Source: a virus. Taken from it: 27,049 nt of DNA. How positions within the stretch are numbered: position 1 is the first letter of the stretch; each line of letters opens with the position of its first letter. The notes beneath the pieces are model-generated. The model saw nothing but the letters and a program-made list of their open reading frames with translations. It was not told where the DNA came from and made no database searches. The DNA is taken from the IMG/VR virus record IMGVR_UViG_3300030102_002991, positions 1 through 27,049 of that record; one strand, written 5' to 3'. Below are positions 4,931 to 25,724 of this stretch, piece by piece. The position numbers and the translations under genes are program-made.

Positions 4931-6253
4931 TTAATATGATGATTCTACTGTATCGCTTGATACTGCAAATAATTCTCTTTTTTTGTTTATAGAATTATCT
5001 AATGAAAATTCTATTGTGTTAAAAAATCCTTTAACACCTGTAACGTTATTGCCAAAAACTACTTCACCAGCCGTAGCAGAAGAATTATTTAGTATGTTAG
5101 CAAAATATTTATTTTCTTTTTTCTTAAAACTATTTGTAAATAGCTCTGTGCTATAATCACTTAATGACGTTGGTTGCACATATTTAGATATTGGTACTTG
5201 GCCTACATCACCTGAGCTAGCTATTATACTGTTAGCTGTCCAGTCATTAGTACCTTCATAATTTATAGTTTTAAACACTTTAACAGTAGATGGTTGAGCG
5301 TTTAATACAACTTTAACTGTTGATGGAAAAACTTGATCATAAAACCTAGAATAAGCGGCTGATCCATAATGTTGATATAGTTTACCTGAGTTAGTTGTAA
5401 AAAATGTAGATGATAAACTAAATATCCAAGATGGTTTAAAGCTTAATCTACTTGTCCAGCCTTGTACAGTTTCATCAAAAGATAATGTATTAAAACTACC
5501 ATCAGTGTTTTGTATAGATAATATATAGTTTTTAGTGTGCATATCCCAACCACCTCTAATTTTACTTACATTGGCGGCTAATGCATCTCTAAAAAAGTCA
5601 TGCATACCATAACCTGATATTTCTACTATTTCACCAGCAGTTGTTAACCTTAACACACAACCTCTTTTTCTGTCTGTAAAATATTTTCTATGACCATATA
5701 TAGCAAAACTATACGGATCTGTACTAATACCATACTCTCCTTTATAAGGAACTATTTGACCTATGACTTGTTGGCTAGAAGTAACTGTGGCGTTGCCTTC
5801 TGCAGAGTAAATAGCATCTTTATCTATTAAAGCTCTGTTAACCTTGTCTTCTTGGAAAATAATTAAATTAGTATCTTCTGCGTATAGCTTTTGTATAGAG
5901 CCATGAACTGGATCTACACTTCTAGTTATATCTTCGCCAACTGAAAATACATTAGTTTGATTTATACCTGTTCTTGAATTAAAAACTCCAGAGTATATCA
6001 ATGTATTAAACCTGTGTTGGTTTTTAGGGTTATCTTCTACTATATGTGCTTTAACTCCTAAATCTGTTATAGTGTTGTTATAACCACCTCTTATCCTAGC
6101 TTCTTCAACAAACCAGTCATTAGTATTATCATTAGCATAAGCTTGAGGAACGTTTGCATAAGGTGCTGTAGGTTGCGGATTTGCATCTACAACATTACTT
6201 AACTTCTTCACCCAGTAAGAGTTAAAATATTTTAATTCTAAAGTAGCGCCCAT
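4931..6253 (-). CDS. Tail-barrel protein, second part (crAss-like muzzle/stabilisation C-terminal half)
   Basis: The protein has 440 residues and looks beta-rich. It contains phrases I recognise from the C-terminal half of large tail proteins in marine and crAss-like phages: EEARIRGGYNN near residue 50, NTLIYSGVFNSRTG near 85, SIQKLYAEDTNLIIFQEDKV near 120, DKDAIYSAEG near 145, and a terminal ELFAVSSDTVESSY. In related phages, as I recall them, these sit in one chain with the N-terminal portion encoded here by the 1410-residue gene just upstream, 32 bases away. The likely role is the lower tail barrel or muzzle that receives fibres and guides DNA. There is no sign of frameshift debris between the two genes, so this looks like a clean split. 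Confidence 0.62.
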   Translation of the reverse strand: MGATLELKYFNSYWVKKLSNVVDANPQPTAPYANVPQAYANDNTNDWFVEEARIRGGYNNTITDLGVKAHIVEDNPKNQHRFNTLIYSGVFNSRTGINQTNVFSVGEDITRSVDPVHGSIQKLYAEDTNLIIFQEDKVNRALIDKDAIYSAEGNATVTSSQQVIGQIVPYKGEYGISTDPYSFAIYGHRKYFTDRKRGCVLRLTTAGEIVEISGYGMHDFFRDALAANVSKIRGGWDMHTKNYILSIQNTDGSFNTLSFDETVQGWTSRLSFKPSWIFSLSSTFFTTNSGKLYQHYGSAAYSRFYDQVFPSTVKVVLNAQPSTVKVFKTINYEGTNDWTANSIIASSGDVGQVPISKYVQPTSLSDYSTELFTNSFKKKENKYFANILNNSSATAGEVVFGNNVTGVKGFFNTIEFSLDNSINKKRELFAVSSDTVESSY

Positions 6254-6285
6254 ATTCTTTTATTATCACTTATTTTTTAATATTA

Positions 6286-9200
6286 TTACAACCAACCAAC
6301 AGCGCCAGGCATAGGCTGAGCACACGTGCTAAAACCGCCTTGACAAGCTACAGCTCTAGCACCAGAGCATATATCATCAGCAACTTCTGGACTAATTTTT
6401 ACACCATCAGTTCCAAACCTTGCTGAAACTTTAATTTGATCAAATGGTTCAGACGTTTGCGTATCTGTTGTAAATGTTCTATATTCGTTTGAGCTAGGAG
6501 TAACAGGGCTAGCTAATTGAACATTGCTGTAAAATAAATCTACATACTGTGCATAAGGCATAGGTGCATAATAAGTCGCTGAATTTGTAGCAGCACCACA
6601 ACTATAGTTAGTTTGAGCAGAAGACACGCTATACTTATAAGATTTAGGTGTTCCACCGTCTGAAACCTCAGTTGCATTTTCTATAACACAATCACTATAG
6701 TATAAGTCATTAGAATTAACCCAAGCACAAACAGCATCAGCGTTTACAACCGCTTGTTGTGTTATTAACTCTGTAGCACAAACAGCATATTCACCAGCTT
6801 GATCAAAGGCAAAAGCTGCAGAAGCTTGTTTACCTACTGCATCAGCAGCGTTAAATGTGCTATTTATAAGCTGACCACTAACACCAGGCGCGCCCATATT
6901 GTCATTGTTAAAGTCGGCTATTGTGTTCCAAGTATTAGTTCCGTTTGGATCTCTATAAAATACTTTCCATATTACAGTGCTTTCTGTTCTAGGAACTAGA
7001 CCTGTGTTATTTGTAAAAGCTTGCTGTATTATACATTGAAAAACTACTGTACCCTGAGATAAAGCATTACCTATTTTAAAACCTCCACCTTGCGAAAAGC
7101 CTGATTGAGCTGCTGTAGGTGTTATTGGTAAATCGTTAGAAGCTAAAGTACTATCGCTTAAATACCAAACACCAGATACAGGGGTTTGATTTATAGGTGC
7201 TGTAAGCTGGTTTGTAGCTGGATTACCAGCACTACCTACAGCTCTACAACTTGATTTAGAACCTGAATTAATAGCAGTAGCACCTACTGTTACTTTCTGT
7301 GTTTTTGTTACATTAAGACTTCCAGTTTGAGCAACGCCATTTAATACAGCGTCTTCTATTTTTAACGTTAAGTTATAAACGCCTATAGGTGTTGAAGCTG
7401 ATTTAGTTATAACACCTGTTGTACTTGCTATTGCAAAATAATTACCAGTATTTCCACCTGTTATACTATATTTTAAACCTACTATACTATTACTATTAGA
7501 ACCGTTATTACCATCTCTTGTTACTACTGCTGTAGCAGATGCACTAACAGTTACGTCTGGTAAGCTTGCGCCTGCTGTAAATTCAGGTGCAATGTTACTT
7601 AATGATCCTGTTTCTGTTATCGTGCTACTGTCATTAGAAGTTGTAGTAAAATTAAATGTAAAAGTGTACACCTCTTTTGTAGCTCCATCTGTGCCAAATA
7701 CAAACTGGTTGTTTGCTGTTTGTATTTTATATTTAGTATTACCAGAGCTAAGAACCATTTTAAAATCACCAGTAAAGCTAGTTGTAAACGTAGCACCATC
7801 GTAGTTAATACTTCCAGAAGCTCTTTGAGCACCAGTTCCGTCTGTAACAGTCATTGTCAATGTAGAAACTCCAGTTGGTGCTATAGCAGCGCCTTGGTTG
7901 TTTAATCCTGTAAACTCTTGTGTTACATCTGTTGATGCAGCCATGTTCTCGTTTTGAGAATATGCTAGTGGCGACAAAGCCGTTACTCCATCAAAACCTG
8001 TTTCTATATCAGCGTTTAAATCTGCTATTAATCCAGTCGTAGTAGTTTCATAAAACAACTGTAATCTACTTTCAACTGGTTCTGTTTCAGCTATAGATAA
8101 ATGCGGAACCATACTTGCAGATAAAACTCCTAAATTAGTTGTTCCAGCGTTTGAAGTTGCTAATCTAGCTATCAGAGGGTTTGTTTCTATTTGATAAAAA
8201 TCGTTATCACTGCTTATATCGTCTGCAGCCATTTTAAGATCTCTAGCGTCACCTATTGTATCCGCTGTTATTGCTAGAGGTAATACTTGTGTACCGCTTG
8301 TATTTATAGGAAAATACTGCACATTGTCTGTTGCAGTGTTATTTACTCTACCATATAATCTTATAGAACTTCTAAATTGTTTTTGTTCTGGCCCAACTTC
8401 TGATAAATCTCTAGGTATTTTATTTATGTTGTCGTTTAATAACACAACATGTGCTGTTTTATTGTTTTCGTTAGAAGGATAAACTACAGTACCTTGAGAG
8501 GTAGGGTAACCATTTAAAAAACCAGGTAAATAACAGTTGTAATAATCTTGCTCTTGTTGTTTTACTACAACCTTGTATGAATACCAACCTAAAGTGTTAG
8601 GCAAAGTATAAGCAAACTTTACATCTGGATTATTTATTAAAGATCTTAAATATAAACTTTCGTTAACTTGACCATCGGTTGTTATTGTATAGTTAGCTCC
8701 AACATTTGACACGTTAGTGACTTTTACAAAATCTACAAATTGACCTCTTAAATAAGAATTTACAGTTGGAACATCTGTTTGACCAGATGCTAAAGCAAAT
8801 GTATATGTATTATTGTTAATTGTTGGGACTGTTGCGCCTGTAGTATTAAAACCGTTACCTATAGATTCAGCGTATAGACCAGGTTCTCCAGTTATTGAAC
8901 TAGCAGTACTTGTTATAGACTCGTTTACAACAACTTTTAAAGCATCACCAAACCACTCTTTTAAATTTTGTACAGCTGAGCTATATGGGTGATATATAGT
9001 AGATCCGCCAAAAAAAGTACTACCTTGTGTTGTTCCTGAGTCTACAGAAGACAATATAACAGATGATTGTCTACCATACTTATCTGATAATATAAAACCT
9101 ACTTGATAATTTCTATTTTGTTTTAAGGTATGGTTAGGATATTCTGACCAAGTTGTAAAAGCAGTAGGACTTTTTAAATTAGCTGTAACATTATAATTTA

Positions 9201-11942: not shown

Positions 11943-12869
11943 TTAAGTTTTTTGATTTATATTTTCTTGTTGTATTTGACTAGCAGCTACCTGTATAACT
12001 TCTTGATTTTTAACAACTACACCTGCATATAAAAGTATTCTTAATATTAATTCTACCTGCTCACTCGCGTGCAACTCAAAGTTACATGAAGATGTAGGTT
12101 GAAAAACGTATTGAGCTCCAGAAGTAAAAGACCATATTGGAGGTATAGGTTTTCTAACATAAGTAACAGTAACGCCTGAGTTTATTTCATCAGGATATAA
12201 TCTAATTAAGTTATTTGAATATGTATATATAGGATTTGTTGTAGTAGGTTTTGTAAGATTAGAACTTAATAAATGATATAGTTCGTGAGAGCCTACTCTC
12301 TCGGCTTCTTCTGTTGGCAAAGCACCAACTTGATATAATACTTGACCTAGTTTATGAAACTGTTTGGGATATAAGTTTATAACTATTATTTGGCCAGCTG
12401 TTGGTTGATTAGCTAATGTTAATGTAGCGCCATTTAAACTATAATCTGTCGAAGCTAATTCTATACCATTTACAAAAACATTTGTAATAGCATTAGAATT
12501 TGATAAAGATAGAGCGTCTCCAGTTAAAGTATATGTTAATCCAGGATTTGCAGCTGTAAATTGTTGTGTTGCTGATGTAACGCCTGAATATTGAGAAGGC
12601 AGTTTAAAATTTGGATTATCGTATGTAGCTGCAGCAGATGTTTTAAATATCTGTAATTTTTCATCTAAACTTACAACTCTATTAGAATAATCTACATCAG
12701 ATTGTGGCACACGTAATTGTTGATTTAAACTATCAAAATATGTTTCAAATATTTCTAGTTGAGATTGAGCACCTATTTTATTAAACTCCAAAGGTGTCAT
12801 ATATCCTCTTTGTTCTTTGTTTAATATTAATAAAACGGTTTGATATACATTGTTTACGTTTATTGCCAT
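11943..12869 (-). CDS. Ring/connector protein with inserted beta domain, 308 aa
   Basis: Residues 1-75 are helical and begin with NVYQTVLLILNKEQRGYMTP and IFETYFDSLNQQLRVP, phrases I associate with the first ring/adaptor protein of crAss-like phages. The core resumes at about 170 (FHKLGQVLYQ, then EEAERVGSHELYHLL and a terminal helical segment). Between them, about 93-169, sits a beta-rich insert with VFVNGIELASTDYSLNG and LTLANQPTAGQIIVINLYP, a pattern common in phage tail and fibre decoration domains. The gene starts after a 66-base gap with nested inverted repeats, so it may begin its own transcript for head-tail joining genes. Confidence 0.68.
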   Translation of the reverse strand: MAINVNNVYQTVLLILNKEQRGYMTPLEFNKIGAQSQLEIFETYFDSLNQQLRVPQSDVDYSNRVVSLDEKLQIFKTSAAATYDNPNFKLPSQYSGVTSATQQFTAANPGLTYTLTGDALSLSNSNAITNVFVNGIELASTDYSLNGATLTLANQPTAGQIIVINLYPKQFHKLGQVLYQVGALPTEEAERVGSHELYHLLSSNLTKPTTTNPIYTYSNNLIRLYPDEINSGVTVTYVRKPIPPIWSFTSGAQYVFQPTSSCNFELHASEQVELILRILLYAGVVVKNQEVIQVAASQIQQENINQKT

Positions 12870-12893
12870 TATAATATTTTATGTTAATAGTGC

Positions 12894-12915
12894 AAGGGCC
12901 ACATAGTGACCCCTT
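12894..12915 (-). other. Hairpin in leader of the ring-protein gene
   Basis: On the minus-strand transcript, AAGGG and CCCTT form an outer stem and CAC/GTG an inner stem around the loop TAT, separated by a small asymmetric bulge. There is no T-run after it, so it is not a typical intrinsic terminator. It lies between the preceding stop at 12936 and the ATG at 12869. It could be an RNA processing or leader structure, or chance. Confidence 0.4.
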
Positions 12916-12916
12916 C

Positions 12917-12937
12917 ACTATATTATAGTTACACGTT
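12917..12937 (-). promoter_or_regulatory. Candidate phage regulatory site, copy 1
   Basis: The minus strand reads AACGTGTAACTATA and runs into the 13-base inverted repeat ACTATAATATAGT (12917-12929). The same 14 bases, again joined to an ACTAT/ATAGT inverted repeat, occur at 22415-22437. Both copies lie just after a stop codon and 29-47 bases before the next ATG. A phage promoter or repressor site fits best. It does not match the Bacteroidota consensus (TTTG, then TAnnTTTG) well, and function is unproven. Confidence 0.45.
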
Positions 12938-13706
12938 ATTGTAACTTTTTCTCTATTGTTTTAAATACTTCTACACCTTCATCAGTTTTAAACCAAGCCG
13001 CTAATGCTGAATAAGGGTTTTCATCAAAAGGAACTGTCATTAATTTTCTATCATTTGATCCCCAATGAAAAGTTCGTTGATCTTGTGAAAGTTTAATTAT
13101 ATTGTGCTCTGTAGCTCTTATAGCTGTATTTCTTAAACCTACGTTTTCATCATTAGCAATAGCCATAAAGTTTGCAGGATTTTTCTTAGCCATTAAAAGT
13201 AAATCTCTTTTTATTTCTTTAGAAGTCATACTTGCTACAGCAGAACCTTTTTCAACTCTTAATATTGCTTCAGCGTGATCTATGTCAAGATCTTTTGCTA
13301 AATTAAGAGCTTCTATTTCAGCGTGTATTTCATCTACTTCGTCTTTAGCAACAACTGTTGGTTCAAACTCAGTGTATATAGCACCTTTTCTTGGGTGATA
13401 TAATGATAAAAGTTTTTGTAGGTTTTGTTTTTCTTTTGAGACGTTTAAAACGCCGTTTTCAAAAAGTATATGCCCCATTGTAGCTTCACCTTTTTGCTCA
13501 TCAACAAATGGTGAGTTTTGATTAGTAGCATATCTTAGTTCTCTTTGTTCATTTTTTTTATCATCAAACCAAAGTAATGGATACCTTGTTGAGTGTCTTG
13601 ATGCTAACCTATATGTTAAAGGAGATTCGTTGTGTAATAAAAAATATGTTCTATCTTTTATTTCCCATTTTTCAGAAGCGGGTACTTCTTGTTTTAATTT
13701 TGCCAT
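12936..13706 (-). CDS. Conserved head-associated protein after the capsid gene, 256 aa
   Basis: I recognise the position and general look but no named function. The N-terminal half is mixed (WEIKDRTYFLLHNESPLTYR, then GHILFENGVLNVSKEKQNLQ near residue 77). The rest is helical and charged (EIHAEIEALNLAKDLD, MTSKEIKRDLLLMAKKNPANF) and ends with a compact domain containing NPYSALAAWFKTDEG. It sits between the major capsid gene and the first ring protein, behind the capsid terminator. Similar proteins follow the capsid gene in other marine phages I recall. A capsid-associated or head-completion role is an inference. The start codon is preceded by an A/T repeat shared with the scaffold-like gene. 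Confidence 0.55.
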   Translation of the reverse strand: MAKLKQEVPASEKWEIKDRTYFLLHNESPLTYRLASRHSTRYPLLWFDDKKNEQRELRYATNQNSPFVDEQKGEATMGHILFENGVLNVSKEKQNLQKLLSLYHPRKGAIYTEFEPTVVAKDEVDEIHAEIEALNLAKDLDIDHAEAILRVEKGSAVASMTSKEIKRDLLLMAKKNPANFMAIANDENVGLRNTAIRATEHNIIKLSQDQRTFHWGSNDRKLMTVPFDENPYSALAAWFKTDEGVEVFKTIEKKLQ

Positions 13707-13721
13707 AATATAATATAATTT

Positions 13722-13755
13722 AATAAAAATAAAAGGCTAGGCGCCGAAGCGCCTA
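13722..13755 (-). terminator. Intrinsic terminator after the major capsid gene
   Basis: On the minus strand, a 7-base-pair stem TAGGCGC/GCGCCTA closes the tetraloop TTCG (stem and loop 13738-13755). It is followed by GCC and the T-rich tract TTTTATTTTTATT. The C(UUCG)G tetraloop is exceptionally stable. The hairpin starts 20 bases past the capsid stop codon, in an otherwise AT-rich gap. It probably ends or attenuates the capsid transcript, or protects its 3' end. Confidence 0.85.
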
Positions 13756-13775
13756 ACACTTTTAATAAAGTAATC

Positions 13776-21907: not shown

Positions 21908-22134
21908 TAATACTCTAAATCATACTCAACGGATATTGCCATGTTAGAATTAAACTTCTTCCACGGCAATACCTCGTCATTTTTTTTGATAAAAATGTTA
22001 TAAGAATTGTCTTTTTGTTCAGCTATTATATGTGATATAGTATGACCACCATAAACAGACTGACCAACAGAATAATGCATTGCATCGGTTTTATAATCAG
22101 AACCAATACTGATTTTTCTTATAACTGATGACAT
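21907..22134 (-). CDS. Small conserved protein of unknown function, 75 aa
   Basis: I recognise no function. The sequence starts with VIRKISIGSDYKTDAMHYSV and continues as alternating short strands, with SYNIFIKKNDEVLPWKKF near residue 44 and an acidic end (EYDLEY). It has no cysteines, membrane segment or signal peptide and looks like a compact beta protein. Both ends are joined to the neighbours by TAATG overlaps, so it is probably made together with the coiled-coil protein before it and the GroES-like protein after it. Similar short proteins occur near terminase genes in Bacteroidota phages I recall. Confidence 0.6.
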   Translation of the reverse strand: MSSVIRKISIGSDYKTDAMHYSVGQSVYGGHTISHIIAEQKDNSYNIFIKKNDEVLPWKKFNSNMAISVEYDLEY

Positions 22135-22385
22135 TATTCTTCTTTTTTATCCTCTTCTTTTTCAATTGGTTCATATGTGCCATCAGATAAATTTATATTT
22201 ACTGATCCATACTGCTCTTCAAGTTCTTTTTTAAACTCTTCAGTTGCTTTATTAACCTCATGAAATTTTGCTAATACTGCGGTTTTTTGGACTTCTAATA
22301 CTCCAGTTTCATTTAAAAGTTGATTTAAATCTTTTTGAAAATCTTGTATTTTTTTTAATTGGTCTTCGGTAATTTTTTTACTCAT
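22134..22385 (-). CDS. Small coiled-coil protein, 83 aa
   Basis: Residues 1-60 form a continuous charged helix with heptad character (ITEDQLKKIQDFQKDLNQLL, then KFHEVNKATEEFKKELEEQ), followed by a short strand (VNINLSDGTY) and a Lys/Glu tail. There is no catalytic motif. Function is unknown; a small coiled coil like this often acts as an adaptor or assembly partner. The gene follows a 56-base gap with a candidate regulatory site and leads the group of three small genes ahead of the terminase genes. Its stop overlaps the next start as TAATG. Confidence 0.6.
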   Translation of the reverse strand: MSKKITEDQLKKIQDFQKDLNQLLNETGVLEVQKTAVLAKFHEVNKATEEFKKELEEQYGSVNINLSDGTYEPIEKEEDKKEE

Positions 22386-22414: not shown

Positions 22415-22437
22415 AACTATTAATATAGTTACACGTT
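22415..22437 (-). promoter_or_regulatory. Candidate phage regulatory site, copy 2
   Basis: The minus strand reads AACGTGTAACTATA (22424-22437). It joins the inverted repeat AACTAT-ATTA-ATAGTT (22415-22430). It starts four bases after the holin stop codon and lies 29 bases before the ATG of the coiled-coil gene. The 14-base core is identical to the one at 12924-12937. It may be a promoter or operator that starts the packaging and head transcript. Confidence 0.45.
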
Positions 22438-22441
22438 TTAT

Positions 22442-22903
22442 TTATTTTTTAAATATACTTGTAACCTTTTCTCCACTTCGTCCGCCGAAGTAGGCTAAAA
22501 CAACGGCCATCATAACTTTTTCAAAAGTATCGTTCCATGTTTCACCTATATGAAACGGTATTGTATCTACACTATCAAGCAAGCCTGCTAGCGAAAACAC
22601 AACAATACACCAAACTAAAACTAGCGGGCGTACATTTTTTGAAAGCCATGAATCTGACGCAGAGTCTGCTTGCCACCTTGCAGTGATAGACTCCATCTCT
22701 TTATTCTGTTGCTCGTATATTAATTGTTGTAATTTTATTTTGTCATCAGAGCTTACATCTGATTTACCTATAGCTGCTATAGCTTCACCTGGTGATGTTA
22801 CTCCTTTTAGCACGTTCCCTAAAGCGGGATTTACTATTGAAGCAGCACCAAATAAAAGTTTACCTACAGTACTTTCTGCGAATTTCTTTTTAGGTTTTGA
22901 CAT
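22442..22903 (-). CDS. Holin (3TM / GTA-holin-like)
   Basis: The protein has 153 residues. An N-terminal Gly/Ala-rich hydrophobic stretch (LLFGAASIVNPALGNVL) is followed by a helical linker with the family-like phrase RWQADSASDSWLSKNVRPL (76-94). Membrane segments lie at about 92-110 (VLVWCIVVFSLAGLL) and 128-141 (VMMAVVLAYFGG), and a conserved-looking GGRSGEK follows. This order matches the 3TM phage holin family related to gene transfer agent holins. It should open the inner membrane at lysis and release the endolysin. It lies two bases from the metallopeptidase-like gene and about 4 kb from the M15 endolysin, so the lysis genes are not adjacent. Confidence 0.82.
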   Translation of the reverse strand: MSKPKKKFAESTVGKLLFGAASIVNPALGNVLKGVTSPGEAIAAIGKSDVSSDDKIKLQQLIYEQQNKEMESITARWQADSASDSWLSKNVRPLVLVWCIVVFSLAGLLDSVDTIPFHIGETWNDTFEKVMMAVVLAYFGGRSGEKVTSIFKK

Positions 22904-22904
22904 G

Positions 22905-23219
22905 TTATTTTTTGTATACGCTCCAAGCTTCTTTTTCCCAAGGAAGTTCTATAGAGCCTTCGTTCATTTTTGATCTGGGATATACTTTACCTTTCCAATA
23001 CACATTTTTATCATCATAATCAAGATCACCTCTTTTCATTTGATTTATGTGTACCATTTCATGTTTAATAACCTCCTTACGTTCAACAGGAGAATTAACA
23101 TCTTTGTCAATTAAAATAGCACCATTTCTGTCTGCCTTACCAACAACACCATCTTCTAGTGGAACATTATATATAGGCGTACTGTCAATAGGAAAAGGTT
23201 GCTTAATTTTAAAAGCCAT
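22905..23219 (-). CDS. HExxH zinc metallopeptidase-like protein, 104 aa
   Basis: Residues 53-57 are HEMVH, a zincin-type HExxH site in the helix VIKHEMVHINQMKRGD. The sequence then runs through DYDDKNVYWKGKVYP, and EKEA at 95-98 offers a glutamate (E97) as third zinc ligand. There is no signal peptide. Small proteins with this layout recur in marine phages, in my recollection, but their substrate is not known to me. It lies directly before the holin, with a TAACATG junction, and after the 52-residue gene via TAATG. That suggests either a lysis accessory that cuts cell-wall protein or peptide links, or a virion maturation peptidase. Confidence 0.66.
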   Translation of the reverse strand: MAFKIKQPFPIDSTPIYNVPLEDGVVGKADRNGAILIDKDVNSPVERKEVIKHEMVHINQMKRGDLDYDDKNVYWKGKVYPRSKMNEGSIELPWEKEAWSVYKK

Positions 23220-23377
23220 TAGTTTTGTTTATAAGGAAACATTTTATTTAAAAAAGTTTTTCGGCCTTCACAGCCACAGGGTATATTTAAACCCTGTGAT
23301 ACTGTGTCAACCAACTTTTTAATACCAGTTGCTTTGGTTACTTTTTCAATACTGTCTCCTAAGCCTCTAGATTTCAT
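23219..23377 (-). CDS. Small conserved protein, 52 aa, with CGC motif
   Basis: The frame encodes 52 residues beginning MKSRGLGDSIEKVTKATG and containing IPCGCEGRK at 33-41, then FLNKMFPYK near the end. I recognise the overall pattern (RGLGD-IEK-TKATGIKK, CGC, LNK-FPY) from small proteins of Bacteroidota phages, but no function is known to me. Both ends are TAATG overlaps with the neighbouring genes, which strongly supports the frame despite its size. The two close cysteines could bind metal or form a redox pair. The middle of the gene also forms a long hairpin in the RNA. Confidence 0.75.
   Translation of the reverse strand: MKSRGLGDSIEKVTKATGIKKLVDTVSQGLNIPCGCEGRKTFLNKMFPYKQN
23269..23306 (-). 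other. Long RNA hairpin inside the 52-aa gene
   Basis: On the minus strand an outer stem CACAG/CTGTG and an inner perfect 8-base-pair stem CACAGGGT/ACCCTGTG are separated by a 3/1 internal loop, with an 8-base A/T loop (23283-23290). A T-run occurs only about 20 bases further on, so this is not a standard terminator. The bases also encode the conserved CGC region. Confidence 0.5.
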
Positions 23378-23664
23378 TAAGACCAAACAACATTTGAAAC
23401 TGTAATTCCTGAAGGAAGCTGTACTTTTGCTTTTACTCCTCCTGGATTAGCTGATAACGCATAGTTAATAGCATCTCTTACAGACGGTGTTGTACCTGTA
23501 GTATCGTGAGTAATTGTACACTCATCGATTATTCCACCGTTATATTTAATAATTGTTGATGTTCCAGAAGCAGCGTCTACGCCAACAACGCCGTCTGCTC
23601 CTATTAATACATTACCTCCATCAAGACCTGATCCTGATGAAAATACTTCGATAAATTTTGCCAT
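23377..23664 (-). CDS. Small Gly/Asp-rich conserved protein, 95 aa
   Basis: I recognise no function. The protein starts MAKFIEVFSSGSG and continues with VLIGADGVVGVDAASGTSTI, TITHDTTGTTPSVRDAINYA and a short C-terminal strand (VQLPSGITVSNVVWS). It is neutral to acidic and beta-rich with one helix, unlike the basic proteins around it. It has no cysteine signature or membrane segment, apart from one cysteine at about residue 49. It follows a 77-base gap with an A-rich tandem repeat leader, one of the larger gaps here, so it may be the first gene of a transcript that continues to the 52-residue, metallopeptidase-like and holin genes. Confidence 0.62.
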   Translation of the reverse strand: MAKFIEVFSSGSGLDGGNVLIGADGVVGVDAASGTSTIIKYNGGIIDECTITHDTTGTTPSVRDAINYALSANPGGVKAKVQLPSGITVSNVVWS

Positions 23665-23677
23665 AATTTTGATTTTT

Positions 23678-23703
23678 GATTTTTGTTAATGATTTTTGTT
23701 AAT
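23678..23703 (-). repeat. Tandem 13-base repeat in an A-rich leader
   Basis: Two exact copies of ATTAACAAAAATC on the minus strand (23678-23690 and 23691-23703) precede the 95-residue gene, with a further partial copy nearer the ATG. The stretch is A-rich, as favoured for translation start regions in Bacteroidota. It may enhance translation or have arisen by slippage. Confidence 0.6.
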
Positions 23704-23741
23704 GTATTTATGGGCGAGTTTTATACAGACTCTACTGTTTT

Positions 23742-24170
23742 TTATTTTTTCTTATGACCCATTTTAATTGGATCTTTCATTTTCATTGGCTCCTTCATAT
23801 TTAAAGGTTTTTTACCATAAGCTTTTAAAGGAGGGTTTTTCATCTGCATCGGATCCTTCATCTTCATTGGATCCTTCATCTTCATTGGATCTTTCATTTT
23901 CATAGGGTCCTTCATCTTCATGGGTTCTTTCATTTTCATTGGATCTTTCATTTCAGGTGCGGCTTCTATCGCTCTCTTTAAATGATCTGGTAATTTATGT
24001 TGATTACCTTTTAATTGTTTATCTAAGGGACCTCTTTTTGAAGTTCCTGGTTTCATTTGAAAAGGTCCTTTTTTCATTTGAAACATACCTTTTTTCATAG
24101 TCATACCTGCTCTTTCGTCGACAGGCATGTCTTTCATTAAGTTCTTTTTTTCTTGTTTAGCTGATTCCAT
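23742..24170 (-). CDS. Met-Lys-Asp-Pro repeat protein, 142 aa
   Basis: The protein is built largely of the hexapeptide MKMKDP. Repeats run from about 73 to 113, then again at about 124-137, and a looser Met/Lys/Gly repeat (MKKGMFQMKKGPFQMK) occupies 25-40. Between them is a helix, KLPDHLKRAIEAAPE (59-73), which looks like the only ordered part. It is very basic and methionine-rich, lacks cysteine, and is probably disordered. Function is unknown; nucleic-acid binding or a virion-packaged filler protein are possibilities. It lies 6 bases from the lysine-rich gene before it, which carries a trace of the same repeat. Confidence 0.66.
   Translation of the reverse strand: MESAKQEKKNLMKDMPVDERAGMTMKKGMFQMKKGPFQMKPGTSKRGPLDKQLKGNQHKLPDHLKRAIEAAPEMKDPMKMKEPMKMKDPMKMKDPMKMKDPMKMKDPMQMKNPPLKAYGKKPLNMKEPMKMKDPIKMGHKKK
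23760..23948 (-). repeat. 18-base coding tandem repeats
   Basis: Six consecutive 18-base units lie at 23841-23948 and two more at 23760-23795. On the plus strand the typical unit is CATTTTCATTGGATCTTT. Each encodes six residues of the Met-Lys-Asp-Pro protein. Units differ mainly at silent positions (for example GGATCC against GGATCT), so purifying selection on the peptide is likely after expansion. They are not a CRISPR array: there are no spacers. Confidence 0.9.
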
Positions 24171-24176
24171 TTTTAA

Positions 24177-24542
24177 TTATTTAGACTGTGAGTGTTTAGA
24201 CATAAATGATCTGTCAGCAATATTATTTTCTAAATAATGTAATCTTGCTTTACCAGATAAGTTTTTGTTGTATGCTTCTTTAGCATCGTAACTTGCGTCT
24301 TTTTTTAAGTTGTTTTTCATTTTAATAGGATCATATGGACTTCCGCCATACTTTTTAGTGTATTTTTTTTCTTTTTTAGTAAGTCTATCTTCAACTCTAT
24401 AAAGTTTATCTCTATCTTTATCGTAGTTTCCACTAGTATATTTGTTTGAACCGTAGCCTTCTACAACAGCATCATACAAACCTTTATGTTTATCAGATAG
24501 CTTGTTGATTTTTTTCTTTAATTTTTTTTGTTTATCTGGCAT
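24177..24542 (-). CDS. Lysine-rich small protein, 121 aa
   Basis: I recognise no function. The protein is strongly basic: KKLKKKINKLSDKHKGLYD at the start, a second basic helix (RLTKKEKKYTKKYGG) around residue 53, then SPYDPIKMKNNLKK near 68. The last third (LSGKARLHYLENNIADR) looks like a conserved helical ending. It has no cysteine, signal peptide or membrane segment. DPIKMK and its DNA resemble a repeat unit of the next gene. Such a basic composition fits nucleic-acid binding, but nothing here proves it. It sits between the beta-rich 172-residue gene and the repeat protein with tight spacing. Confidence 0.58.
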   Translation of the reverse strand: MPDKQKKLKKKINKLSDKHKGLYDAVVEGYGSNKYTSGNYDKDRDKLYRVEDRLTKKEKKYTKKYGGSPYDPIKMKNNLKKDASYDAKEAYNKNLSGKARLHYLENNIADRSFMSKHSQSK

Positions 24543-24552
24543 AACTATAATT

Positions 24553-25071
24553 TTAACTTAATGCAACTAAATTTTCTACGCCACCTTCTGTTCCTGTGGC
24601 AAATACTTGTACTACGCTAACCGGTAATATTTCACCTTTAACTGGATTGTGAAAAGTTACTGTCTCGTTGTTTACGGTTAATACTTTTAATTTTGCGCTT
24701 TCAGCATAAGTATATGTCAATGTAGCATCTGCTGCTATTGTATCTGCAGCTGATAAAACATAGTTACTAGCATCAGTTACGGACGCTATAGTTAAGCCAG
24801 TTGTGGGTAAACCAGTTCCTTTAACTAACATACCTGCTTTAATAAGCGGGTTTGGAGATTTTAAACTAACATTTGTTGAGTTGTTAACTGCGTTATTGTC
24901 AGTTGTTGTTGTTACAGGTAGCGTAGCTGGAGAATCACCAACATATAAGTTGTACTGTTTCCAAGCACCTTGTGGTATATCAGCTTTAGTTCTACCGTCT
25001 ATAAGTAGTGTATCACTAACTGAAGGTGATACAGCAGAACTGTAAGCTTCTGTGTAATAATTTCTAATCAT
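24553..25071 (-). CDS. Small beta-rich protein, possible virion decoration protein, 172 aa
   Basis: The protein begins MIRNYYTEAYSSAVSP and GRTKADIPQGAWKQYNLYVG, then a module at 66-122 (LIKAGMLVKGTGLPTTG, YVLSAADTIAADATLTYTY) and a C-terminal strand set ending in ENLVALS. The module resembles segments embedded in the 471-residue ring protein and the 1410-residue tail protein. It is neutral, lacks cysteines and looks like a soluble beta protein. A capsid decoration or minor structural role is my inference from the shared module and the composition. It lies among small basic genes, away from the main structural block, with gaps of 5 and 10 bases. Confidence 0.55.
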   Translation of the reverse strand: MIRNYYTEAYSSAVSPSVSDTLLIDGRTKADIPQGAWKQYNLYVGDSPATLPVTTTTDNNAVNNSTNVSLKSPNPLIKAGMLVKGTGLPTTGLTIASVTDASNYVLSAADTIAADATLTYTYAESAKLKVLTVNNETVTFHNPVKGEILPVSVVQVFATGTEGGVENLVALS

Positions 25072-25076
25072 TTTTT

Positions 25077-25364
25077 TTATTTTTTATTTTTGTGTTTATT
25101 ACAAAAGTTTCTAGCAGCTTCTTTACTACCAAAACCCCATTTTTTTAGAGCCATTTTAAGTTTAGTAGGCTCACCTTTAGCATCTTTTAATGCTCCAGCC
25201 ATACCAGCAAATCTACACGCAAAAGAAACTCTACGTTTACCTGTTCCGGACGTTTGTCTAGTTCCAAGTGTTTTACCTGTTTCTTTTTTATGCTTAGCTC
25301 GCATTGCGCGATTTTGTTTTTCGTAAGCTTTTTCTTTTATATTGTTAGGTGATTTACTAGCCAT
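25077..25364 (-). CDS. Small basic cysteine-paired protein, 95 aa
   Basis: The N-terminal half is very basic (KAYEKQNRAMRAKHKKETGK). A second part has RRVSFACRFAGMAGALKDAK (44-63), KLKMALKKWGFGSKEAARNF and ends CNKHKNKK, placing cysteines at 50 and 88. Small proteins with FACRF-GM and KWGFGS-EAAR phrases are ones I recall from marine phages; their role is unknown to me. The two cysteines flanked by basic residues could bind zinc or pair in a disulfide. It follows the 118-residue gene by 3 bases. No enzyme motif is visible. Confidence 0.62.
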   Translation of the reverse strand: MASKSPNNIKEKAYEKQNRAMRAKHKKETGKTLGTRQTSGTGKRRVSFACRFAGMAGALKDAKGEPTKLKMALKKWGFGSKEAARNFCNKHKNKK

Positions 25365-25367
25365 AAT

Positions 25368-25724
25368 TTATTCTCCACATTTTTTACTAGGATCATCAAC
25401 TCTTCTCCAGTCTTCTTTTTCAAACCAGTCTCTTAATGTAGCACCTTTTTTTCTAGCACCTTTTACATTTGTTTTTGATGATCTTTTATATTTACCTTTA
25501 GCACCGGCAGATTTTTTAGCATTTACTAATTCTTTTCTTTTTTCTTTAGACATGCTTTTTATTTTAGAAGCAGGTAAACAGGTTTTTGTTGTGCCTCCTC
25601 CTTTTTGTTTTGTAGCCGGTGAATCAGAAACTTTTACGCAACTACCTTTTGAAAACTCTTTTGTACCAGGTTTTCTTTTATAACCTTGCCAGCATGACAG
25701 TGGATTATTTTGTATATAAGGCAT
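25368..25724 (-). CDS. Small basic protein with four cysteines, 118 aa
   Basis: Cysteines lie at 11, 29, 49 and 116, each near lysines. Conserved-looking segments are CLPASKIKSMSKEKRKEL (49-66), KGKYKRSSKTNVKGARKKGA (76-95) and LRDWFEKEDWRRVDDPSKK (97-115). I recognise this layout from small proteins of marine phages and large DNA viruses, but not a function. Four cysteines and many basic residues would suit a zinc-stabilised nucleic-acid-binding protein. Its start lies 20 bases inside the end of the phosphatase gene, so the two are tightly coupled. Confidence 0.62.
   Translation of the reverse strand: MPYIQNNPLSCWQGYKRKPGTKEFSKGSCVKVSDSPATKQKGGGTTKTCLPASKIKSMSKEKRKELVNAKKSAGAKGKYKRSSKTNVKGARKKGATLRDWFEKEDWRRVDDPSKKCGE

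Follow-up and report, generated by a model that had tools for sequence, protein, structure and literature searches.

The stretch of DNA analysed here (the window, 27,049 nucleotides) represents 27 kb of a podovirus-like phage genome, a fragment in which the terminase, portal, ring and muzzle genes are all read in one direction. The window TerL shares 63% identity with that of ctfjg026 and about 44% with those of the elemo Flavobacterium phages; other isolated relatives have Cellulophaga, Tenacibaculum and Maribacter as hosts, and the TerL proteins of uncultured IMG/VR relatives are up to 87% identical. The MAG bins holding relatives belong mostly, not exclusively, to Bacteroidota, and the motif-bearing viruses described below appear to form a large and uncultured marine group infecting Bacteroidota. 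In two contigs (G025, 41016-43213; G034, 23207-25368) the TerL frame is broken by several stops, which may represent assembly errors, insertions or decayed copies.

There are seven intergenic gaps in the window, and gaps of at least 30 bp make up 1.36% of its length. Exact copies of the 14-base motif AACGTGTAACTATA occupy two of the seven. The features of these loci, and of a third one carrying a related site, are as follows (A, B and C denote putative promoters):

22448..22452, minus strand: TTAAA, the promoter A -35 box (GTAAA in the consensus), located within the 3'-terminal part of the holin gene
22424..22437, minus strand: extended -10 of promoter A, AACGTGTAACTATA, with TG at 22433-22432 and the hexamer AACTAT at 22430-22425
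22415..22418, minus strand: transcription start of promoter A as predicted from the geometry, which would leave some 30 nt of leader before the ATG at 22385
22134..22385, minus strand: 83-aa gene, first of the operon behind promoter A, followed by a GroES-like gene, terminase and portal
12948..12952, minus strand: AGAAA, a weak -35 region belonging to promoter B, within gene 12936-13706
12924..12937, minus strand: extended -10 of promoter B, AACGTGTAACTATA
12887..12921, minus strand: hairpin directly behind promoter B, with paired changes in relatives and no U-run in the window
11943..12869, minus strand: gene for a virion structural ('ring') protein, which opens the operon following promoter B
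6285..6289, minus strand: -35 box of promoter C, GTAAT
6261..6274, minus strand: extended -10 of promoter C, AATAAGTGATAATA
4931..6253, minus strand: gene behind promoter C, matching the crAss muzzle C-terminal domain (PF25729, 2e-11)

The two exact copies were first noticed in a sequence-only reading of the window, and no third one exists there. As that reading had stated, both lie right after stop codons and ahead of new genes; the stop codons belong to 22442-22903 and 12936-13706, and the genes that follow are 22134-22385 and 11943-12869. It was also right that a 14-base repeat alone is unremarkable: the window contains 72 direct identical 14-mer pairs, compared with about 13 in dinucleotide shuffles. 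Their shared placement and orientation are indeed unusual: both copies fall within the small intergenic fraction and are oriented like the genes (naive p about 5e-5), which makes the placement meaningful, unlike the repeat alone. The ACTAT/ATAGT inverted repeat said to be attached to the motif is present at both window copies, but it is not conserved in relatives and was for this reason rejected as the signal or a part of it. In the nearest complete relative, the ortholog of site 22424-22437 reads ACCTGTAACTATATTAATACATTAATAACC and the inverted repeat is not kept; at site 12924-12937 the repeat makes up the base of a distinct hairpin that is conserved. The third, related site (core G at 6269) had been overlooked in the sequence-only reading.

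Comparison with relatives revealed a two-part consensus, GTAAA, 17 nt, TGTAA(T/C)TAT, of which the window motif is the extended -10 part. The -35 box was derived from 33 non-redundant sites located just downstream of a phage sigma factor gene in other genomes; in their alignment on the core, GTAAA emerged unprompted at -20..-16, with nearly no conservation at -15..-6. Among 54 gap cores from TerL loci, which are nearly independent of this training set (only two or three of the 54 are sigma-downstream sites), GTAA was found at -20 in 20 cases and at -19 in four, and no other offset between -30 and -11 occurred more than once. A sigma70-type promoter would be expected to have this geometry, i.e. 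a -35 GTAAA, a 17-nt spacer, an extended -10 TGT-AATTAT and a predicted start near +14. The two boxes are thus separated by a spacer within the 16-18 nt range (GTAAA-17-AATTAT); sites A and C fit this arrangement, and the -35 of site B is weak.

When 80 TerL loci and the window were scanned, all 14 occurrences of GTGTAANTATA were in gene sense, with no antisense copy and no hits for reversed control patterns. Gapped-k-mer enrichment in 242 sense gaps yielded GTAACTAT (13 versus 0.8 expected, 0 antisense) and GTAA.TAT (27 versus 5.4 expected, 2 antisense), and unsupervised enrichment separately recovered TATnTTTG, the Bacteroidota primary promoter element. The core GTRAYTATA alone shows no genome-wide enrichment, and a core-only matrix matches many coding positions, specificity being attained only with the two-box matrix. 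EM applied to raw upstream sequence found just coding conservation and start-codon context; applied to gaps, with a reverse-complement control that was not clean, it found the core and missed the -35 box because its frame was too short. The core is followed by the next ATG after about 13 nt in several genomes, which suggests that messages behind such sites may be leaderless or nearly so. Genes right after sigma (e.g. in L133, L135, L143 and L146) also have start codons about 13-14 nt past the core G, and leaderless messages are possible there.

Both window strands were scanned with a matrix built from sigma-downstream gaps of other genomes, none of them from the window. Its three highest-ranking sites were 22432 (25.8 bits), 6269 (15.9 bits) and 12932 (9.6 bits), all intergenic and in gene sense; the maximum score in shuffles had a mean of 9.8 bits and reached 14.4 at the 95% level. 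Promoter A, the best-scoring site, carries TTAAA instead of the consensus GTAAA. Promoter B, with its poor -35, scores within the shuffle range and is not significant by score alone; it was accepted because it has the -10 core and lies at an orthologous place in G031 and further relatives. Of 32 ring gaps from sigma-positive genomes, only 5 score 8 bits or more, although the GTAA core is kept in most of the 32. E. coli-type promoters gave no signal in the window (85 found versus 77 expected), and the host element TAnnTTTG is absent from all window gaps. The best explanation for this arrangement is that the motif promoters drive the packaging (A), ring (B) and putative muzzle (C) operons.

The ring mRNA would carry the hairpin behind promoter B at its 5' end. 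In most isolates the terminator comes first in the ring gap and the promoter second, whereas in the window the promoter runs directly into the hairpin. Ring-gap hairpins with compensatory changes were also seen in L009, L010, L186, L194 and others, followed by a T-run only in some (e.g. L072). Elsewhere in the window, a strong terminator-like hairpin with a T-run (GTTAGGCGCTTCGGCGCCTAGC, then CTTTTATTTT; 13736-13757, minus strand) sits behind the gene for a 487-aa virion protein, in the gap 13707-13775; a gap of similar length is found at this junction in phi38:1 and ctfjg026.

Two relatives, G001 and G002, encode a sigma70-family protein of 250-253 aa. It was identified by matches to a PHROG sigma family (3e-21), to FliA/SigA in PDB and to sigma folds by Foldseek; matches to Pfam sigma regions 2 and 4 were sub-threshold. 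Its AlphaFold model matches PDB sigma factors, with weak domain packing (pTM 0.53) and flexible domain placement. At least 242 relatives of this protein exist in IMG/VR, while 50,697 phage records contained no close relatives, the matches being at most 35% identical and none of them from phiEco32. All 39 complete-size contigs with the sigma gene carry a window-type TerL (66-84% identical); these 39 consist of the two complete relatives nearest to the window, G031 and G027, and 37 further contigs. The window itself, a fragment not covering the respective region, has no sigma gene, and we infer that the phage from which it derives would encode one. The gene is absent from the eight isolates checked, and the single match in a MAG with a TerL of 65% identity, a 640-aa frame on a long contig, was taken as the host RpoD. 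Of 77 sigma loci, 71 have the motif core in the gap that immediately follows the sigma gene (reversed control: 0 in the same bin). In seven such gaps (L107, L108, L112, L114, L119, L130 and L131) a covarying stem lies just ahead of the promoter, with arms GTCCC/GGGAC, GTCAACT/AGTTGAC or TGTAGCA/TGTTACA; it is possibly a terminator of early transcripts.

Across the genomes compared, promoter and sigma factor occur together. G031 (69.7 kb, TerL 84% identical) has only four sites of at least 12 bits, each in an intergenic gap: one follows sigma, one lies upstream of the chaperonin region, and the other two precede the ortholog of the 83-aa gene and the ring gene. Three isolates have 0, 0 and 1 (coding) two-box sites at this threshold, but 8-13 host-type gap promoters, compared with 0-1 in sigma-positive genomes. 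The primary sigma factor of Bacteroidota (sigmaABfr) uses promoters of the -33 TTTG / -7 TAnnTTTG type (PMC6847099). Such a promoter fills the ring gap of phi38:1, Calle_2, elemoA, elemoD, ctfjg026 and the Maribacter, Tenacibaculum and phi19:3 phages, with TAnnTTTG located 23-39 nt upstream of the ring start codon in 8 of 8 isolates checked; of 32 sequences taken upstream of ring genes in sigma-positive genomes, none contains TAnnTTTG, and in window-type phages the GTAA core mostly replaces it. The gap before the 83-aa gene likewise holds a host element in phi38:1 and elemo. MAG loci divide in the same manner, those with 75-79% TerL identity having motif-bearing (class-L) sites in 5 of 5 cases, and those with 39-65% identity having host elements and no class-L site in 4 of 4. 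Two 48-kb relatives, both fragments, contain motif sites and no sigma gene. It appears, as far as sequence comparison can tell, that the clade uses a sigma factor of its own to read these junctions, where cultured relatives have kept host-type promoters.

In the block preceding the sigma gene the prevailing class is a different one, AATACGA-N9-GATAATATAA, which is near zero after the gene, where class L begins. This second class is represented by 128 non-redundant sites, and GATAATAT occurs in 113 gaps versus 4 expected. Its sites, often preceded by TTACA and often followed by GTAAC, stand before many small early genes up to the sigma gene, and were seen in sigma-positive relatives, e.g. in L093 8104-15900 (G002 28-36 kb) and in the sigma flanks of L107-L185. 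The class is not of the host type, and TAnnTTTG shows no enrichment in early gaps (29 sense versus 44 antisense). It is conceivable, though we hold it only tentatively, that the clade has abandoned host primary promoters altogether, the early class, a previously undescribed one, being read by some other, perhaps virion-borne factor and the later genes belonging to the sigma class.

Based on these observations, we suggest, with a probability of roughly 85%, that the motif is the extended -10 of GTAAA-17-TGTAAYTAT, read by the host core RNA polymerase with the phage 250-aa sigma70-family factor. The phage-specific promoter envisaged in the sequence-only reading is strongly supported by promoter-like two-box geometry, conservation in relatives, sense-only placement in gaps, co-occurrence with sigma and the alternation with host-type promoters in orthologous gaps, all of which are directly observed. 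Recognition by sigma, start sites and timing are inferences from the sequences. To judge from complete relatives, the early block with its different promoter class would be transcribed first, with the sigma gene closing that block. The host core RNA polymerase would then take up the phage sigma, which, with the first class-L promoter right behind its own gene, would turn on the replication genes and subsequently the structural genes.

Alternatively, a primary or alternative sigma factor of an unusual Bacteroidota host might read the promoter, leaving the phage sigma with other targets. The MAG bins of relatives are not all Bacteroidota, which leaves some room for this explanation; it is nonetheless improbable, as the motif accompanies the phage sigma and is missing from the sigma-less isolates checked, the primary Bacteroidota factor reads TAnnTTTG, and the first motif site comes directly after the sigma gene, following a block of another class. 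It is even less probable that the motif is an operator bound by an activator or repressor of the phage. A short conserved box near operon starts, palindromic in appearance at both window copies, would suit such a role, but there are two boxes at a fixed 17-nt spacing, asymmetric and in a single orientation, about 14 nt or more ahead of start codons, and the palindrome is not conserved.

The sequence-only reading had the promoter recognized by a virion or phage RNA polymerase. A podovirus-like phage with very large virion proteins and a phage-specific motif might well use a single-subunit enzyme, but this possibility is largely refuted: PF00940 found no match in twelve relatives, although it recovered the T7 positive control, and the sites are built as two boxes in sigma70 fashion, not as a single uninterrupted block. 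The giant virion proteins that were scanned had also been considered as polymerases and were rejected, as no polymerase domain or family supports them. Least credible of all is that the motif belongs to a terminator or RNA element ending the upstream transcript. The conserved GC hairpin directly behind it at the ring gap, with a U-run in some relatives, would agree with this, yet no GC hairpin follows site 22424-22437 or the sigma-downstream sites, and the GTAAA box, partly in coding sequence, is kept at a fixed distance.

If phage sigma-dependent transcription is confirmed, a defined sigma factor and a two-box consensus would constitute the promoter code of a widespread group of uncultured marine phages. 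Since cultured sigma-less relatives keep host promoters at the same junctions, the host-to-phage transcription switch is directly testable in Bacteroidota. The primary sigma factor of these bacteria is unusual, and the system may supply orthogonal promoters for them. No description of this promoter system was found in the literature searched, which mostly leaves out subscription journals.

The window-type class would join the phage-sigma-dependent promoters of phiEco32, SPO1 and T4. It differs from T7-like promoters in that relatives encode no T7-like RNA polymerase (PF00940, twelve relatives), and from the N4-type virion-polymerase hairpin promoter in that no small hairpin is conserved, ACTAT/ATAGT included. 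It is also unrelated in sequence to sigmaABfr promoters, which are absent from sigma-positive ring gaps. As with the T4 gp55 late and the SPO1 gp28/gp34 promoters, a phage sigma would redirect the host core RNA polymerase to middle and late genes. T4 late promoters consist only of TATAAATA and require the sliding clamp, whereas the window-type class has a -35 box at 17 nt. The middle and late promoters of phiEco32 and phage 7-11 are similar in depending on a phage sigma distantly related to the sigma70 family and in having an AT-rich -10, which in phiEco32 is TAATGTATA (PMC4331800). In these phages, too, structural genes lie behind phage promoters, with part of a functional cluster behind bacterial ones. 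The window-type class is distinguished from them by another sigma factor, different hosts, early genes without the known host promoter type and a clear -35 box, GTAAA.
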